The notes under the pieces were generated by a model. It worked only from the letters and a program-made list of their open reading frames with translations. It made no database searches and had not been told where the DNA came from. Positions 5,408-33,728 of a stretch of DNA of 37,722 bases are shown here, piece after piece. Origin of the DNA: Pseudomonadota bacterium. Its GTDB lineage: Bacteria > Desulfobacterota > WTBG01 > JAPLJA01. Position 1 is the first letter of the stretch, and the number at the start of each line of letters is the position of its first letter. The translations under genes and the position numbers were made by a program. The stretch covers positions 1-37,722 of the forward strand of contig JAPLJA010000136.1 in the NCBI GenBank assembly GCA_026388815.1. Direction: 5' to 3'.

Positions 5408-5595
5408 AAATCCCTTTCCCTTTTTATCTGGGCGCAATAAATTGCGCCCCTACATAAAACCGCAGGCCGTAAGGCCGGAGGCCGCTCATGCGGTAATTCA
5501 TTTGTCATTTTATTCCGCATCCCGCAATCTGCATTTCGCATACCTTTTACCTTCGTACGGGCAATTCATGAATTGCCCCTACACCTTCAACCTTC

Positions 5596-6103: not shown

Positions 6104-6574
6104 TTATTCCTCACTCCGCACTCCGCAATCTAAAATTTCCAGTATCTCTGCTGCATCTCTGACAAACTTCGGACAGCGTGTGGGAATGATTTTTTCATCC
6201 ATGGCACGTTTAAATCCTTCGGGTGTGCTGATATCGCAGCCCAGCAATTCCCGGCAGCGAATCGTGTTATTGCGGGATTTAAACTTTTCAGCAAACTTCC
6301 CCACGAGCGACTGGGTTTTTTGCTTCGCCTCCTTGTCTTCAGCCCACACGCTGCCGTGCTTAAGCCCGATAACCATGATCGCACCGCATACCGCCCCGCA
6401 TGTCTCACCCATGCGGCCGATACCTCCTCCGAAACCTCCCGAAATCATCAATGCAGTCTCTCGATTCAGGCCATAGTGTTCAGCATAGGCTGCACATACT
6501 GCCTGGGAACAGCTGAAACCTTCCTTAAAAAGCGAAACTGCTTTCTCCACCGTACATTCACGTTCTATAGCCAT
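6104..6574 (-). CDS. C_GCAxxG_C_C family redox protein
   Basis: GFSCSQAVCAAYAEHYGLNRETALMISGGFGGGIGRMGETCGAVCGAIMVIGL. Confidence 0.85.
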   Translation of the reverse strand: MAIERECTVEKAVSLFKEGFSCSQAVCAAYAEHYGLNRETALMISGGFGGGIGRMGETCGAVCGAIMVIGLKHGSVWAEDKEAKQKTQSLVGKFAEKFKSRNNTIRCRELLGCDISTPEGFKRAMDEKIIPTRCPKFVRDAAEILEILDCGVRSEE

Positions 6575-6658
6575 ATAAACCTCCGCTCATAGCATTCAGC
6601 CGTCAGCCGTCAGCCTTCATAAAGCAACTAAAACAAACACACTAATTGCTATTACATT

Positions 6659-6742
6659 GTCATTGCGAGCGACCAACGGGAACGTGGCAATCTCATCACA
6701 TAAACAAGAGATTGCTTCGTCGTTGTCACTCCTCGCAATGAC
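6659..6742. repeat. Intergenic inverted repeat (GTCATTGCGAG...GCAATCTC...GAGATTGC...CTCGCAATGAC)
   Basis: Perfect 11-bp outer arms and 8-bp inner arms. Confidence 0.85.
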
Positions 6743-6832
6743 GACAAAAAGGACTTTTCAGCAACTGCTAACAGCTAACTTTCTACTAAACTACCTTAAA
6801 AATTTCAATAGGAAGGCTTTTTACAGGATAGC

Positions 6833-6861
6833 TTGACCTTACCCTATAGATACTTTATAGT
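6833..6861 (+). promoter_or_regulatory. Sigma70-like promoter for lon
   Basis: TTGACC, 17-bp spacer, TATAGT, about 50 bp upstream of the lon ATG. Confidence 0.6.
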
Positions 6862-6911
6862 ATAAATGAACGAATGCGTTTTTACTTACAAATACGAGGT
6901 GAAGATAAAAA

Positions 6912-9308
6912 ATGGCTGAATCGCAGGAAAAGGACCAGTTAATCATACCAGACGTCCTCCCACTCTTACCGGTCAGGGACATCGTTATTTATTCCTACAT
7001 GTTTCTGCCCCTGTTCGTGGGAAGGGACGCCTCTCTCAAGGCAGTTGACGAAGCGATATCTAAAGACCGGCTCATCTTCCTGATTACCCAAAAAGAGGCA
7101 ACCGAGGATGAACCTGCAAAAGAGGGGCTGTACAACATCGGGACAGTGGCAATGATTATGAAGAAGTTCAAACTTCCTGATGGCCGCGTCAAGATCCTTG
7201 TCCAGGGAATCACGAAAGGGAAGATTGAGAAATACATCCAGGAAAAGCCCTTCTTCCTGGCGAATATCCAGAAGCTCGAAGACGAGGTCGTCACTGAGAT
7301 TAGCCTGGAAACTGAAGCCCTGATGAGGAACGTAAAAGAAGAGTGCGAAAAGATCCTCTCATTAAAGGGGCTTATCTCTGCCGAGATCCCCGAGATATTG
7401 AATAATATCTCTGAGCCGGGGAGGTTAGCTGACCTGGTGGCATCGAACCTGAGGCTCAAGATAGAAGAGTCCCAGTCAGTACTCGAAATTTTAGACCCCA
7501 TTGTGAGGCTGAAAAAGGTTAATGAACTCCTGGTAAAAGAGCTCGAGGTCTCCACCATGCAGGCCAAGATCCAGTCTCAGGCCAAGGAGGAGATGTCCAA
7601 AACGCAGAGGGAATACTTTCTCCGCGAGCAGCTCAGGGCGATCAAGGCAGATCTGGGAGAGATGGACGAGAAGTCCGCAGAGATCGCTGATTTCTCGGAA
7701 AAGATCAAAGCGGCTAACATGCCGCCGGAAGTTGAAAAGGAAGCGAGAAAGCAACTCAACCGGCTGGAACAGATGCACCCCGATGCTGCTGAAGCATCCA
7801 TCGTACGAACGTACCTGGAGTGTGTTGTTGAGCTTCCCTGGAGCAAGGGCACAAAGGATAACCTCGACATAAAGAAGGCCAAGGAAGTCCTGGACGAGGA
7901 CCATTACGACCTGCAGAAAGTGAAGGAGAGGATCCTCGATTACCTGTCGGTCCGGAAGCTGAAGAAAAAGATGAAAGGGCCGATCCTCTGTTTCGTAGGC
8001 CCGCCAGGGGTCGGCAAGACCTCGCTTGGAAAATCGATTGCCCGCGCCCTCGGGAGGAACTATATCAGGATATCCCTGGGCGGGATCCGGGACGAGGCCG
8101 AAATCAGGGGACACCGGAGAACTTATATCGGTGCACTGCCCGGCAGGATCGTCCAGGGAATAAAGCAGGCTGGTTCGAACAATCCGGTATTCATGATGGA
8201 CGAAATTGACAAGGTCGGAGCTGATTTCCGAGGCGATCCCTCGGCTGCGCTGCTCGAAGCGTTAGACCCTGAGCAGAACTATGCCTTCAGTGATCATTAC
8301 CTCAATTTACCTTTTGACCTTTCGAATGTAATGTTTATTACGACTGCCAACCTGGTTGATCCGATCCTCCCGGCGCTGAAAGACCGGATGGAGATTATCG
8401 AACTCAGCGGCTATACAGACGAGGAGAAGTTACGGATCACCAGGCAGTTCCTCATCCGCCGGCAGATGGAAGAAAATGGGATCACCCCGGAACACCTTGA
8501 GATAAGCGATGAAGCGATCATGGCCATCATCGCTCAATATACCCGAGAAGCGGGCTTAAGAAACCTGGAGAGGGAAATTGCCAACCTCTGCAGGAAAGCA
8601 GCGCGGGCTATTGCTGAAGGGAAAACAGGGAAGACCCACGTTACCAGAAACAACCTCTACAAGTTCCTCGGCGTACCCAAATACATCCCCGATGAAGAGC
8701 AGAAGACGAACGAAACCGGGTTGGCCACCGGCCTCGCCTGGACCCAGGTAGGAGGAGAAGTACTGTACATTGAGGCATCCACCATGAAGGGCAAGGGGAA
8801 TCTCACCCTTACCGGAAGCCTCGGTGACGTGATGAAGGAATCAGCCCAGGCTGCTCTGAGCTATGCCCGCTCAAAGGCTAAAGAACTGAATATTGACGAG
8901 CACTTTTATGAAAAACAGGACATCCATATCCATGTTCCTGCCGGGGCTATCCCCAAGGACGGCCCGTCTGCCGGCGTAACCATGGCTACGGCACTCATCT
9001 CTGCGCTCACCAAATACCCGACCAATAAAGACATTGCGATGACGGGAGAAATTACCCTGCGGGGAAGGGTTCTCCCGATCGGGGGACTGAAAGAAAAGGT
9101 TCTCGCTGCACTGAGGGCACATATCAAGACTGTCATCATTCCAGAGCAGAACCGGAAGGATCTCGATGATGTTCCTAAAAATGTCAAGAACAAGCTCAAC
9201 TTCGTATTTGTAAAAGATATGGATGAGATCCTGACGGTGGCCTTGGTGAAGAAGGGGAAGGCCAAGCTTGCAGATCAAAAAAATAGGCGAATTCGGGCTT
9301 CTAAATAG
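6912..9308 (+). CDS. lon: ATP-dependent protease La (Lon)
   Basis: Walker A GPPGVGKTSLGKSIA; catalytic region PKDGPSAGVTMATALISA; full-length 798 aa. Confidence 0.98.
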   Translation: MAESQEKDQLIIPDVLPLLPVRDIVIYSYMFLPLFVGRDASLKAVDEAISKDRLIFLITQKEATEDEPAKEGLYNIGTVAMIMKKFKLPDGRVKILVQGITKGKIEKYIQEKPFFLANIQKLEDEVVTEISLETEALMRNVKEECEKILSLKGLISAEIPEILNNISEPGRLADLVASNLRLKIEESQSVLEILDPIVRLKKVNELLVKELEVSTMQAKIQSQAKEEMSKTQREYFLREQLRAIKADLGEMDEKSAEIADFSEKIKAANMPPEVEKEARKQLNRLEQMHPDAAEASIVRTYLECVVELPWSKGTKDNLDIKKAKEVLDEDHYDLQKVKERILDYLSVRKLKKKMKGPILCFVGPPGVGKTSLGKSIARALGRNYIRISLGGIRDEAEIRGHRRTYIGALPGRIVQGIKQAGSNNPVFMMDEIDKVGADFRGDPSAALLEALDPEQNYAFSDHYLNLPFDLSNVMFITTANLVDPILPALKDRMEIIELSGYTDEEKLRITRQFLIRRQMEENGITPEHLEISDEAIMAIIAQYTREAGLRNLEREIANLCRKAARAIAEGKTGKTHVTRNNLYKFLGVPKYIPDEEQKTNETGLATGLAWTQVGGEVLYIEASTMKGKGNLTLTGSLGDVMKESAQAALSYARSKAKELNIDEHFYEKQDIHIHVPAGAIPKDGPSAGVTMATALISALTKYPTNKDIAMTGEITLRGRVLPIGGLKEKVLAALRAHIKTVIIPEQNRKDLDDVPKNVKNKLNFVFVKDMDEILTVALVKKGKAKLADQKNRRIRASK

Positions 9309-29148: not shown

Positions 29149-29234
29149 GCCGAAGTGGTGGAATTTGGTAGACACACCATCTTGAGGGGGTGGCGGCTAA
29201 CACCGTGCGGGTTCGAGTCCCGCCTTCGGCACCA
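29149..29234 (+). tRNA. tRNA-Leu(GAG), CCA encoded
   Basis: Acceptor GCCGAAG/CTTCGGC, anticodon arm CCATC-TTGAGGG-GGTGG (GAG), T arm GCGGGTTCGAGTCCCGC. Confidence 0.95.
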
Positions 29235-29236
29235 TT
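29218..29236 (+). repeat. 19-bp direct repeat within the tRNA-Leu 3' end (att-like)
   Basis: TCCCGCCTTCGGCACCATT, identical to 31759-31777. Confidence 0.85.
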
Positions 29237-29411
29237 AAAAATTTAAGTCTGTAGTTCAAGTGGATTACGGGCTTTTTTGTTTCGAATAGGATCGCATCTC
29301 AAAGATAAAGAATTGACCCCCTACTTTCCCCCAAAAGGGTCACCAGTTCGGGTGAATCCTTTGCCGCTGCAAATCTTACACTTGACGATCAATTTGAAAC
29401 CTTTTTAATAT

Positions 29412-29502
29412 GTTGAACGCTGGGCATGAGCCGACCACGCCACTAATGCTGGAATGAAAAACACAAGAGGCTGTTCGCGGTCGGCTGGATTTTCTGCTTA
29501 GG
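29412..29502 (-). other. Degenerate attC-like site downstream of the 307-aa gene
   Basis: Minus strand GCCTAAG...CAGCCGACC...GGTCGGCTCATGCCCAGCGTTCAAC: strong 8-bp internal stem and attC-like ends with mismatches in the core boxes. Confidence 0.45.
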
Positions 29503-29592
29503 CAAATTATCTCTCCTTTTTCCAAACGTCCTTTGTCAATGGCTGACCCCTCTGCTCGCCTCGTGGGAAACAACGCCGATCGTTCTCCCTAT

Positions 29593-30516
29593 CTATGGGG
29601 TTCCCTTGAGGACCCACTTTCCAGGCTCGTATTCCCAAACTTGCTCGCTTACCTTGGCCTGCATTCCATCAGATATCCTCATGGGTGGTGGATCTCCATT
29701 GCCCAGACTGACGCTGCCATTGCGGAAGCTGATAGCAGGGAAGTCACCACGACTGTCTATCCACAGGCCCAGAAAGTCGGCCCACTTTGAACCGAATGTA
29801 ACAACCCAGTAACGTGATCCCGCTGCCAGACCAAGGCTGAGCTCGTGATCCTGTAGGTTTTCAGTCCCACCCTTGAGTGCCTCAAACGGCAGGCGATGTT
29901 TGTCGAAAATCGGCTTGACGATCTGGACAAGCTCCGGGTGGTCAATGTTGGCTGCGAAGACGGTAAGTAAGAGGTACTCATTGAGAACATCGGTCATGCG
30001 CGATTCCTTCGCGGAAAAACTCGCGCCTTGCGCCGCTGAGTGTGGGCTACTGGCTGAACTCCCTCCGAGGGCTACTCTTTTTCCGTCCTTGAGCGTGACG
30101 CTTCCCTTGCCTCCCACATAAACATATCCCTTGCCGTATGTGCATCGAAATGTCAGAGGGTCCGTCTCGTCTCCTTCGAAAACGTAGCCAGTAAAACCTG
30201 AGTCCCGAAACTGGGACATTCTGTCTAGGGCAGTGCCGTTTACCGTCCCTTTGAAGCGGTGTATAGCACCATTATGGACTACCCGCTCGAGGAGAATGGT
30301 CTCCCCAGGGAACTGCTTGTTGGGGATAGTCCCGATGGAACCCTCAGTCCGAATCTTGCCCCCTTCGCCGGTGATCACGATGTCCGTCTTCGCCATCACC
30401 TGCTCAATCTTAATGTCTTTGAGAGTAAATTTTTCTTGTGCAGAGGCCGAATACTGAGAGACCATATTAATGAGAAACAATACTATTACCATTCCCAAAA
30501 TAGTTTTTGATTTCAT
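29593..30516 (-). CDS. Predicted exported protein, cassette cargo 2
   Basis: Signal peptide MKSKTILGMVIVLFLINMVSQYSASAQ; AAGGAGG RBS 7 nt before the ATG; lies between attC-like sites. Confidence 0.65.
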   Translation of the reverse strand: MKSKTILGMVIVLFLINMVSQYSASAQEKFTLKDIKIEQVMAKTDIVITGEGGKIRTEGSIGTIPNKQFPGETILLERVVHNGAIHRFKGTVNGTALDRMSQFRDSGFTGYVFEGDETDPLTFRCTYGKGYVYVGGKGSVTLKDGKRVALGGSSASSPHSAAQGASFSAKESRMTDVLNEYLLLTVFAANIDHPELVQIVKPIFDKHRLPFEALKGGTENLQDHELSLGLAAGSRYWVVTFGSKWADFLGLWIDSRGDFPAISFRNGSVSLGNGDPPPMRISDGMQAKVSEQVWEYEPGKWVLKGTP

Positions 30517-30547
30517 GCCGCACCCTCCTTTTTTAATTCATTTATAA

Positions 30548-30613
30548 GTCTAACGCACAAGCTAAGGGGCACAGCAGTCTTTTGCCGCGTTCCTCTTGAG
30601 CGCCTTGTTGGGC
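30548..30613 (-). other. Integron attC-like recombination site (66 bp)
   Basis: Minus strand GCCCAAC-AAGGCGCTCAAG-AGGAACGCGGCAAAAGACTGCTGTGCCC-CTTAGCTTGTGC-GTTAGAC; RYYYAAC and GTTRRRY boxes, pairable L boxes with an extra unpaired base. Confidence 0.8.
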
Positions 30614-30658
30614 ATTCATGTCTCGTTCCTTTTAATGGGCACTGTTCCTCGTACGACT

Positions 30659-31351
30659 TCAGTTGTTTCCCAGCAGTGCGGCCAGACGCCCAAACAGGTA
30701 TACTCGCTCCCGCCCATCCGCGGTTCTGTCGACGGCAAAGTAGTCGCCGGCCTTATGGCCAAAGGCGATCTTCGTTCCGATAATATTGCGGGCAATAAAG
30801 AATGGCTGGCTACAATAGAAGCTGACAGTCCTTCCTTTGGCTGCGGATATCTTCCCGCCAGGGGGCAAGACGAACATCACCTCCGCCCCTCTCCCAGCTG
30901 TGCCCGTGGTCGTTGTATTTATTTCCATTGAGAAAGAATACGGTAGGACGCCTTTCATCTCGATTGGGCCCTCAAGTTCCAGGGTGCTCAGATCGCTCCT
31001 CAGAACATCGCGATCAGGCAGATCGCGAAGTCGATCCCGAACCTGCACGAGGTGGGCGGTCTCAGGATAGTAGAGAACGAAACGAAGGTACGCTACTGCA
31101 GTGTTGGCCTGCACCGCCTTCGTGAACTCCGTGCTTTCCTGCCTACGGATCCAGTCGTCCGCCTGGTCGCGAAGCGGGCTCTTTGGGTGCGCGGTCCGGA
31201 ATACATTATACTCTTCCAAGCTAGCTGAGGACTGTGCCTTGGCCCAGGCCCGGGACTCTTGGTCGTCTTTAGCTTCTTGAGCAAAGCCAAGAGCATAAAC
31301 AAGTGACAATGACAGAATTAATACATTTAGCACTAAACCGTACCTTTTCAT
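30659..31351 (-). CDS. Predicted exported protein, cassette cargo 1
   Basis: Start reassigned to MKRYGLVLNVLILSLSLVYALGFAQ with AAAGGAGA RBS; starts 28 nt after a GTTGGGC core. Confidence 0.6.
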   Translation of the reverse strand: MKRYGLVLNVLILSLSLVYALGFAQEAKDDQESRAWAKAQSSASLEEYNVFRTAHPKSPLRDQADDWIRRQESTEFTKAVQANTAVAYLRFVLYYPETAHLVQVRDRLRDLPDRDVLRSDLSTLELEGPIEMKGVLPYSFSMEINTTTTGTAGRGAEVMFVLPPGGKISAAKGRTVSFYCSQPFFIARNIIGTKIAFGHKAGDYFAVDRTADGRERVYLFGRLAALLGNN

Positions 31352-31378
31352 AACGGCGCATCTCCTTTCTATGATTAG

Positions 31379-31385
31379 GCCCAAC
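31379..31385 (-). other. Lone GTTGGGC core (attI-like or relic attC R' box) at the upstream boundary of the first cassette
   Basis: GTTGGGC on the minus strand directly before the gene, with no complementary RYYYAAC arm upstream. Confidence 0.5.
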
Positions 31386-31758
31386 ATTAAATTTTTAAGC
31401 TGATTATACAATTGGCAACAATATAAGAGAATAGGATAATGTGTCAATAATTTTTAAGAGAAAATTTCAGAAGTAAAACCACGGCATTGTATAATGTTCC
31501 AAATTTTATTATATAAAATAGGTATAACTATGGAACTTGTTATGAGTCAGTCCTTCGGAAAGTATGGGCTTCAAGGGGTTCTATAAGATCCCAATCTATA
31601 CCCTTCTATGTCGTGTGGATTTCTGCAAAATACCCATCGGGTTAATTTGATTTCTGGTTGCGTATAGGTTGCATTTTGCTGTCACGTCATGTCACATTTT
31701 GCATTACTTTGCAGAGTTAACTATCTGAAATACTTGATATTTCATTACTTATTTCTAA

Positions 31759-31777
31759 TCCCGCCTTCGGCACCATT
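31759..31777 (+). repeat. Duplicate of the tRNA-Leu 3' terminus (att-like)
   Basis: Exact 19-bp match to 29218-29236. Confidence 0.85.
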
Positions 31778-31932: not shown

Positions 31933-33728
31933 ATGAACATCATTCACCAGGAGGCATTAGCATGGGTTCAGGAGATGGCCAACCTGTGCCAGCCGGATGA
32001 GATATGCTGGATCGACGGCAGCGAAGAAGAAAAAAAACGTCTTGAGAAAGATGCTCTTGCCACTGGCGAGCTTACCAAGCTGAACCAGACGCAATGGCCT
32101 GGATGCGTCTACCACCGGACAAATCCCAACGATGTTGCCCGCACTGAAGAGCTAACCTTTATCTGTACTGCTTTGAAGGAAGATGCCGGGCCGAACAATA
32201 ACTGGATGTCCCCGTTAACTGCCTACCGTAAAGCAACTGAAATTTTCAAGGGCTCCATGAAAGGCCGGACCCTGTATGTAATTCCGTTCTCCATGGGACC
32301 AGTCGGTTCTCCTTTCTCTAAAATCGGCATAGAAATTACTGACAGCATCTATGTGGTGCTCAACATGCGTATCATGACCATCGTAGGCGAAGAAGTGATT
32401 AATCAACTCGGCACCGCCGGCATATTTACCAAGTGCCTGCACAGCAAGGCTGATCTTAATCCGAAGCGCCGCCTGGTCCTCCATTTCCCTGAAGATAACA
32501 CGATCTGGAGCGTCGGCTCCGGTTATGGCGGCAACGTACTTCTCGGCAAAAAGTGCCTCGCCCTGCGCCTCGCGAGCCACATGGCGCACGAAGAGGGATG
32601 GCTAGCAGAACACATGCTCATCATGGGCATTGAAGAACCAAACGGTCGCATCCAATATCTTACCGGCGCCTTCCCAAGTGCGTGCGGCAAAACCAATCTG
32701 GCAATGCTGGTGCCTCCTGACGGTCTGAGACAAAAGGGCTATCGTATCTGTACGGTGGGCGATGATATTGCCTGGATGAGAATTGACACTGATGGCGGTC
32801 TGTGGGCCATCAATCCTGAATCAGGATTTTTCGGAGTTGTACCCGGCACAATTTAAAAACCAATCCTAATGCCATGGCCACTATTCGCAGGAATACCATC
32901 TTTACCAATGTGGTGCTTGGCGAAAACGGTGACGTCTGGTGGGAGGGATCTGATGATGAACCTCCACAGCTTGCTCGTGACTGGAGGGGGCGGCCCTGGA
33001 AGCCAGGCTTAAAGGACGACAAAAACTCCCCTGTACTCGGCGCTCATCCCAACAGCAGATTTACTGCACCTATCTCTCAGTGTCCCACTTCATCCTTCCG
33101 CCGCCAGCATCACCACGGCGTACCTGTCTCAGCAATCATTTTCGGAGGCCGCCGAGCACGTTTGGCTCCGCTCGTTTACGAATCCTTTAACTGGCAGCAT
33201 GGTGTATTCATGGGTGCTGCCATGGCTTCTGAGCGTACCGCCGCTCAATATGGCACTATCGGCGAGGTTCGCCAGGACCCCATGGCAATGCTGCCCTTCT
33301 GTTGATACAACATGGCCGATTACTTCGAACACTGGTTGCGCACGGGTTTGCGCATGAAACGGAAGATACAGCCGCGAATATTCAATGTCAACTGGTTCCG
33401 CACTGATGAAAACGGTAATTTTCTCTGGCCTGGCTACGGTGAAAATCTGCGCGTACTAGAGTGGATACTGGCCCGTTGCAGAGGCGAGGTTGATGCAGTT
33501 CAAACTGCCATCGGATACATCCCCCGTCCCGAAGATCTCAACTTGACCGGCCTTGATCTCCCTCCAGGCAACCTGGAGAAACTACTGAAGGTCAATCATG
33601 AAGACTGGCTGGAGGAAGCCAACCGGATCGAGAATTTTTTCAAACAGTTTGAAGACCGGTTACCCACTGAGATATGGGCGCAACTGGAAGGCCTCCGACG
33701 CAGGCTGGATGTCATGGACGAAATGTAG
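31933..33728 (+). pseudogene. pckG: GTP-dependent phosphoenolpyruvate carboxykinase, interrupted by a frameshift (about 32850) and an in-frame TGA (33303-33305)
   Basis: Three consecutive ORFs together encode [80 protein letters not shown]. Confidence 0.9.

Follow-up and report, generated by a model that had tools for sequence, protein, structure and literature searches.

A probable degraded integron with two gene cassettes and a truncated intI, lying beside a duplicated tRNA-Leu tail

Integrons are bacterial devices for collecting genes, and in the canonical chromosomal layout a divergent intI gene is followed by attI and by an array of cassettes. Clusters of attC sites without intI are common, and by default IntegronFinder 2 calls a CALIN where two or more attC sites lack a nearby integrase (PMC9024848). 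Three origins have been proposed for such intI-less clusters, the loss of intI being one of them (PMC8618304), and pseudogenes account for nearly a third of intI genes (PMC2426708).

The window, that is the whole stretch of 37,722 nucleotides analysed here, is contig C233 of a 3.49-Mb draft genome (316 contigs, 98% complete, 5% contamination). Reading of the proteins gives the gene order pgk-tpiA-secG-tRNA-Leu(GAG), then two minus-strand genes and a pckG-like gene. A search with the triose-phosphate isomerase matched many phyla at 52-59% identity and did not place the host in any one of them. From sequence comparison, we consider the locus of the two minus-strand genes to be, with a probability of about 0.87, a degraded integron comprising a truncated intI, a promoter, attI and two cassettes. 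The first-pass annotation had described it as an integrase-less, CALIN-like cluster; the cassettes are indeed without a local integrase, but attI, its promoter and the beginning of intI are retained, so the locus is more than a stray group of attC sites. The locus is real and well resolved, yet familiar in kind. Next to it, a gene resembling the GTP-dependent PEP carboxykinase (31933-33728) is broken into three consecutive ORFs (31933-32856, 32874-33305 and 33312-33728), which reflects either a pseudogene or assembly errors.

The gene of cassette 1 (30659..31348, minus strand, 229 aa, ATG at 31348) and that of cassette 2 (29593..30516, minus strand, 307 aa) both encode proteins of no recognised family that look exported, with a signal-peptide-like start as judged by eye from the sequence and not by a prediction tool. 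The two ORFs, and the attC-like site claimed behind each, were recovered in our analysis. No relatives of either protein were found in Pfam, NCBIfam, PHROGs or plasmids, nor any of the cassette 2 protein in viral contigs and named GTDB genomes; the PDB search returned insignificant matches only, and none of the relatives searched carries either gene. A possible remnant of a third cassette gene (29321..29392, minus strand) was read from the sequence directly behind the last core, as an ORF of 23 codons with a TTG start and a CxxC motif. At another locus (L059, contig C228, 9703-10577), an attC-like site is followed by a gene for an exported protein, 46% identical to the cassette 2 protein over 46 aa.

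The attC sites were evaluated with a covariance model derived from annotated class 1 integrons on plasmids together with integron loci of the host genome and its relatives. The model was aligned without the sites of the window, with the R and L boxes paired, and the window was searched with filters off. The site of cassette 1 (30548..30613, minus strand) scores 38.0 bits (E=7.4e-9 in the window) and ranks fourth among 21 matches genome-wide (E=6.8e-7 over 3.49 Mb). Its order is R'' (GCCCAAC), a 6-nt spacer, L'', L', a 7-nt spacer and R' (GTTAGAC), with the extrahelical base of L'' in the class-1 position, so that the textbook layout previously read by eye is borne out by an independent model and the site is an attC beyond reasonable doubt. 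The site of cassette 2 (29412..29503, minus strand; better bounds than the 29412-29502 given earlier) is the second-best match of the window, full length, at 11.3 bits and E=0.25, the third match reaching 10.0 bits. Its R boxes are degenerate (GCCTAAG/GTTCAAC) and its L boxes strong, as had been noticed. Scaled to a single strand of the approximately 100 nt that follow the gene, its E-value becomes about 3e-4 by our own arithmetic. This second site is weak by itself and would not stand alone, but it is in register, complete and placed where an attC must be. Both genes are therefore followed by an attC with paired R and L boxes and, at the first site, an extrahelical base, the second being the weaker example. 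When the isolated minus strands were folded freely, as the first-pass annotation had proposed, the stability was unexceptional (z of -0.45 and -1.45), so the case for attC rests on register and not on raw stability. Genome-wide, 14 sites on 11 contigs reach E<=0.01 with this model, compared with 0-4 per genome in 15 genomes of the same class.

The boundaries of the cassettes give a second line of evidence. While a cassette is circular, its R'' and R' complement each other, and upon insertion R' becomes partly derived from the neighbour; R'' should therefore fit the 5' core of its own cassette better than the adjacent R'. Three cores are seen on the minus strand, GTTGGGC (31385-31379), which forms the joint between attI and cassette 1 (31379..31385) and where the leader homology described below ends, GTTAGAC (30554-30548) and GTTCAAC (29418-29412). 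The R'' of cassette 1, GCCCAAC, pairs at 7/7 positions with its own core GTTGGGC and at 5/7 with the adjacent GTTAGAC, as predicted from the excised circle. For that of cassette 2, GCCTAAG, a count by hand gives 5/7 against its own core GTTAGAC; against GTTCAAC the value is 3/7. On contigs C36, C166, C183 and C160 of this genome, too, the R' next to the cassette's R'' is mismatched, and the perfectly matching core lies close to the start of the gene. This pairing pattern is the look of integrase-built arrays, and the cassette-precise boundaries proposed from the sequence hold, all three cores being present.

Upstream of cassette 1, a leader that holds attI and a putative cassette promoter (31383..31541, minus strand) recurs in the genome and matches the attI region of G064, a genome of the same phylum and another family. 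Outward from 31383, the DNA is related to contigs C133 and C203. The best promoter-like pair of the region, with 11/12 matching positions, is TTGACA (31447-31442) and TATATT (31425-31420) at a 16-nt spacing. In G064, the leader (6010-6122 of L223, minus strand) is followed by attC sites at 5545, 5024, 4376 and 4034, and an intact, divergent intI lies upstream of it (6174-7412); this locus is a textbook integron. Its IntI scores 411.9 bits against an integron-integrase cut-off of 265 and is 44-52% identical to other IntI proteins. It also has some 100 extra N-terminal residues, and a clade of longer IntI of this kind has been reported (PMC2426708). Since the G064 leader stands between an intact intI and an attC array, it corresponds to attI plus promoter. 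The alignment of window positions 31383-31541 with it has a score reached by 0/500 shuffles and extends past the intI ATG as far as about 31627. By this homology and the promoter scan, the first cassette of the window adjoins an attI with a promoter, and the continuation into about 85 bp of intI leads to the reading of the locus as a degraded integron. Together with the attC model match, the shuffle test of leader and intI refutes the view that ordinary genes are followed here by inverted repeats resembling attC by chance: the ordinary folding energies of the isolated strands would suit that view, but the E-value of site 1, the full boundary match and the attI homology make it practically untenable.

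The same flank bears on our initial idea, in which an integrase encoded elsewhere would have placed the cassettes into an attG site outside any integron, with neither attI nor intI ever belonging to the locus. For IntI1, insertion into attG is an established reaction (Loot et al. 2024, as cited in PMC12444791), the last core GTTCAAC is a non-standard GTTRRRY, and a complete intI is found neither locally nor in the genome. We dropped the idea once an integron leader was recognised in the upstream flank: the sequence beside cassette 1 is that to which the intact intI adjoins in G064, and it continues into intI itself, which makes off-target insertion very unlikely. The locus would thus show how an integrase-less cassette cluster arises by intI loss from a real integron and not by off-target insertion, a distinction that is usually difficult to draw.

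The truncated 5' remnant of intI (31542..31627, plus strand) reads MSQSFGKYGLQGVL followed by a stop and aligns in register with the start of the G064 intI. Taken by itself, this part has a score reached by 7/500 shuffles, and the intI homology at the window locus is moderately supported. On C133, the intI start MIEAFKEYLLRTE aligns with MITAFKEYLHRRA of G064 (0/500 shuffles), and C49 also keeps sequence that reaches past the leader to the beginning of intI. Neither the window nor the whole genome yielded a complete intI, and where a complete integron has a functional intI the window has this remnant only; the earlier statement that no intI-like ORF is present was thus right for a complete gene and overlooked the truncated one. 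Elsewhere, C-terminal intI remnants lie beside other cassettes on C293 (L010), C114 (L009), C36 (L061) and C183 (L062), C36 retaining an array of four attC sites. These pieces stand upstream of the cassettes and point the same way as they do, where the usual layout is divergent; the arrangement suggests that this genome also holds the decayed remains of a second kind of integron. Integrase matches on C69 and C25 were rejected as IntI, being full-length XerC/XerD-like genes.

A profile of the leader finds six clear copies in the host genome, two on C166 and one each on C133, C203, C49 and the window, and a weaker match on C313. In 6 of the 10 pairs of copies compared, similarity breaks off no more than 3 nt from the GTT crossover; two pairs involving C166a extend approximately 10 nt further and two with C49 stop earlier. 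The conserved end of the leader, GAATAAGCTTAAAAAT[AT]AATGTT, offers a handle for spotting integron remnants once intI is lost, and its core end is similar to that of attI2, AATAAAATGTTRRRY (PMC12901181). Five of the six copies (the window, both on C166, C49 and C203) are then followed by an attC. The one on C203 is weak (14-bit) and stands behind an operon resembling a type III restriction-modification system; there the leader copy precedes the apparent operon of about 7 kb (L122, 803-7919), which is possibly a giant cassette. G064 has, besides its complete integron, four more leader copies without intI (L224, L225 and L226), one of them with an attC and two just 1.2 kb apart. Since the right flank of L226 matches the sequence behind the attC of L224, L226 looks like an empty attI. 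Direct repeats of ~100 bp near several other attC loci had at first the look of insertion scars; the repeats on C166 proved to be leader copies, and the others are locus-specific. The locus-specific repeats occur near attC loci at L010, L093 and L095-L099 (~100-170 bp, 79-90% identical), and flank attC at L010, L097, L098 and L099.

These numbers of leaders lend themselves to a scenario in which leader and cassettes were copied from another integron of the genome as an intI-less unit, a dispersed attI, intI having never been complete at the window locus. The six copies in the host, the four intI-less ones in G064 and the upstream ends, which differ among the leader copies, point in that direction. 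We nevertheless hold it to be unlikely, as the window, C133 and C49 retain the start of intI, which independent losses of intI explain more simply; moreover, pairs that include the window or C133 show just 64-80% likeness, so that the copies are not recent duplicates. Doubtful as well, though worth stating, is the idea that leaders made of attI and promoter without intI are dispersed as docking sites served by one integrase in trans, in which case the window would be an outpost in a tRNA-linked island.

The tRNA-Leu (GAG) gene (29149..29234, plus strand; found by ARAGORN, 48.5 bits with the Rfam tRNA model) provides in its 3' end (29212-29236) one copy of a direct repeat, whose other, att-like copy lies at 31753..31777 on the plus strand (23/25 identical, 19 bp contiguous). 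Elsewhere in the genome, no site matches this tail with fewer than 2 mismatches, and one is within 2 over 18 nt. Such repeats of tRNA tails are left by tyrosine-integrase elements. Among 54 related loci in which tRNA genes were sought, 26 have tRNA-Leu(GAG) following tpiA; a downstream copy of the tRNA tail is found in none of the 24 that could be tested (the other 2 had too little downstream sequence), the best match in relatives being 15/22 as compared with 20/22 here. The absence of the copy in relatives makes the repeat an acquired feature. The element is therefore flanked as a genomic island would be, and the ORFs between the repeats include no tyrosine integrase gene, adjoining the tRNA or otherwise, nor anything else that an element inserting at tRNA genes would encode. 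Short repeated motifs (ATTTTGC, TGTCAC) lie beside the tail copy at 31660-31725 and are perhaps candidate recombinase arm sites. The link between cassettes and tRNA duplication drawn in the first-pass annotation was thus half right: the duplication is real and unique in the genome, and a functional tie to the cassettes is unsupported, since no tRNA is close to the other cassette loci examined in this genome. The duplication more likely marks a tRNA-targeted island that carried the integron and has decayed, and would be its scar.

The following history is proposed. An IntI-family integrase would have recombined two cassettes into an attI that adjoins a strong promoter, the folded attC strand reacting with attI at G|TT as usual; intI would later have been truncated, with some 85 bp of its start surviving, so that attI, the promoter and two exported-protein cassettes stayed fixed in place. 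Both cassettes are probably still transcribed from the promoter on the attI side. Most likely a tRNA-targeted island, whose own integrase has since gone, bore the integron or received it by insertion.

The many dispersed leaders without a complete intI in two genomes are the less usual observation. No paper describing multiple intI-less leaders came up in a partial literature search, and their repetition raises a testable question on dispersed attI sites. For the rest, the locus fits the known picture and documents the intI-loss route with unusual clarity. With a tRNA-targeted genomic island or integrative element it has in common that foreign genes lie between two copies of a tRNA 3' end in direct orientation, but it is only 2.5 kb long and keeps no integrase or other island gene. 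Like a CALIN, it has no complete integrase gene nearby and, if the weak second site (E=0.25) is counted, two attC sites; unlike a CALIN, it still has attI, promoter and the start of intI, so that its origin by intI loss can be read. With a canonical chromosomal integron such as that of G064 it shares the leader, the attI core, the orientation of the cassettes and the attC architecture, and differs in having only two cassettes and an intI cut to its first ~85 bp.
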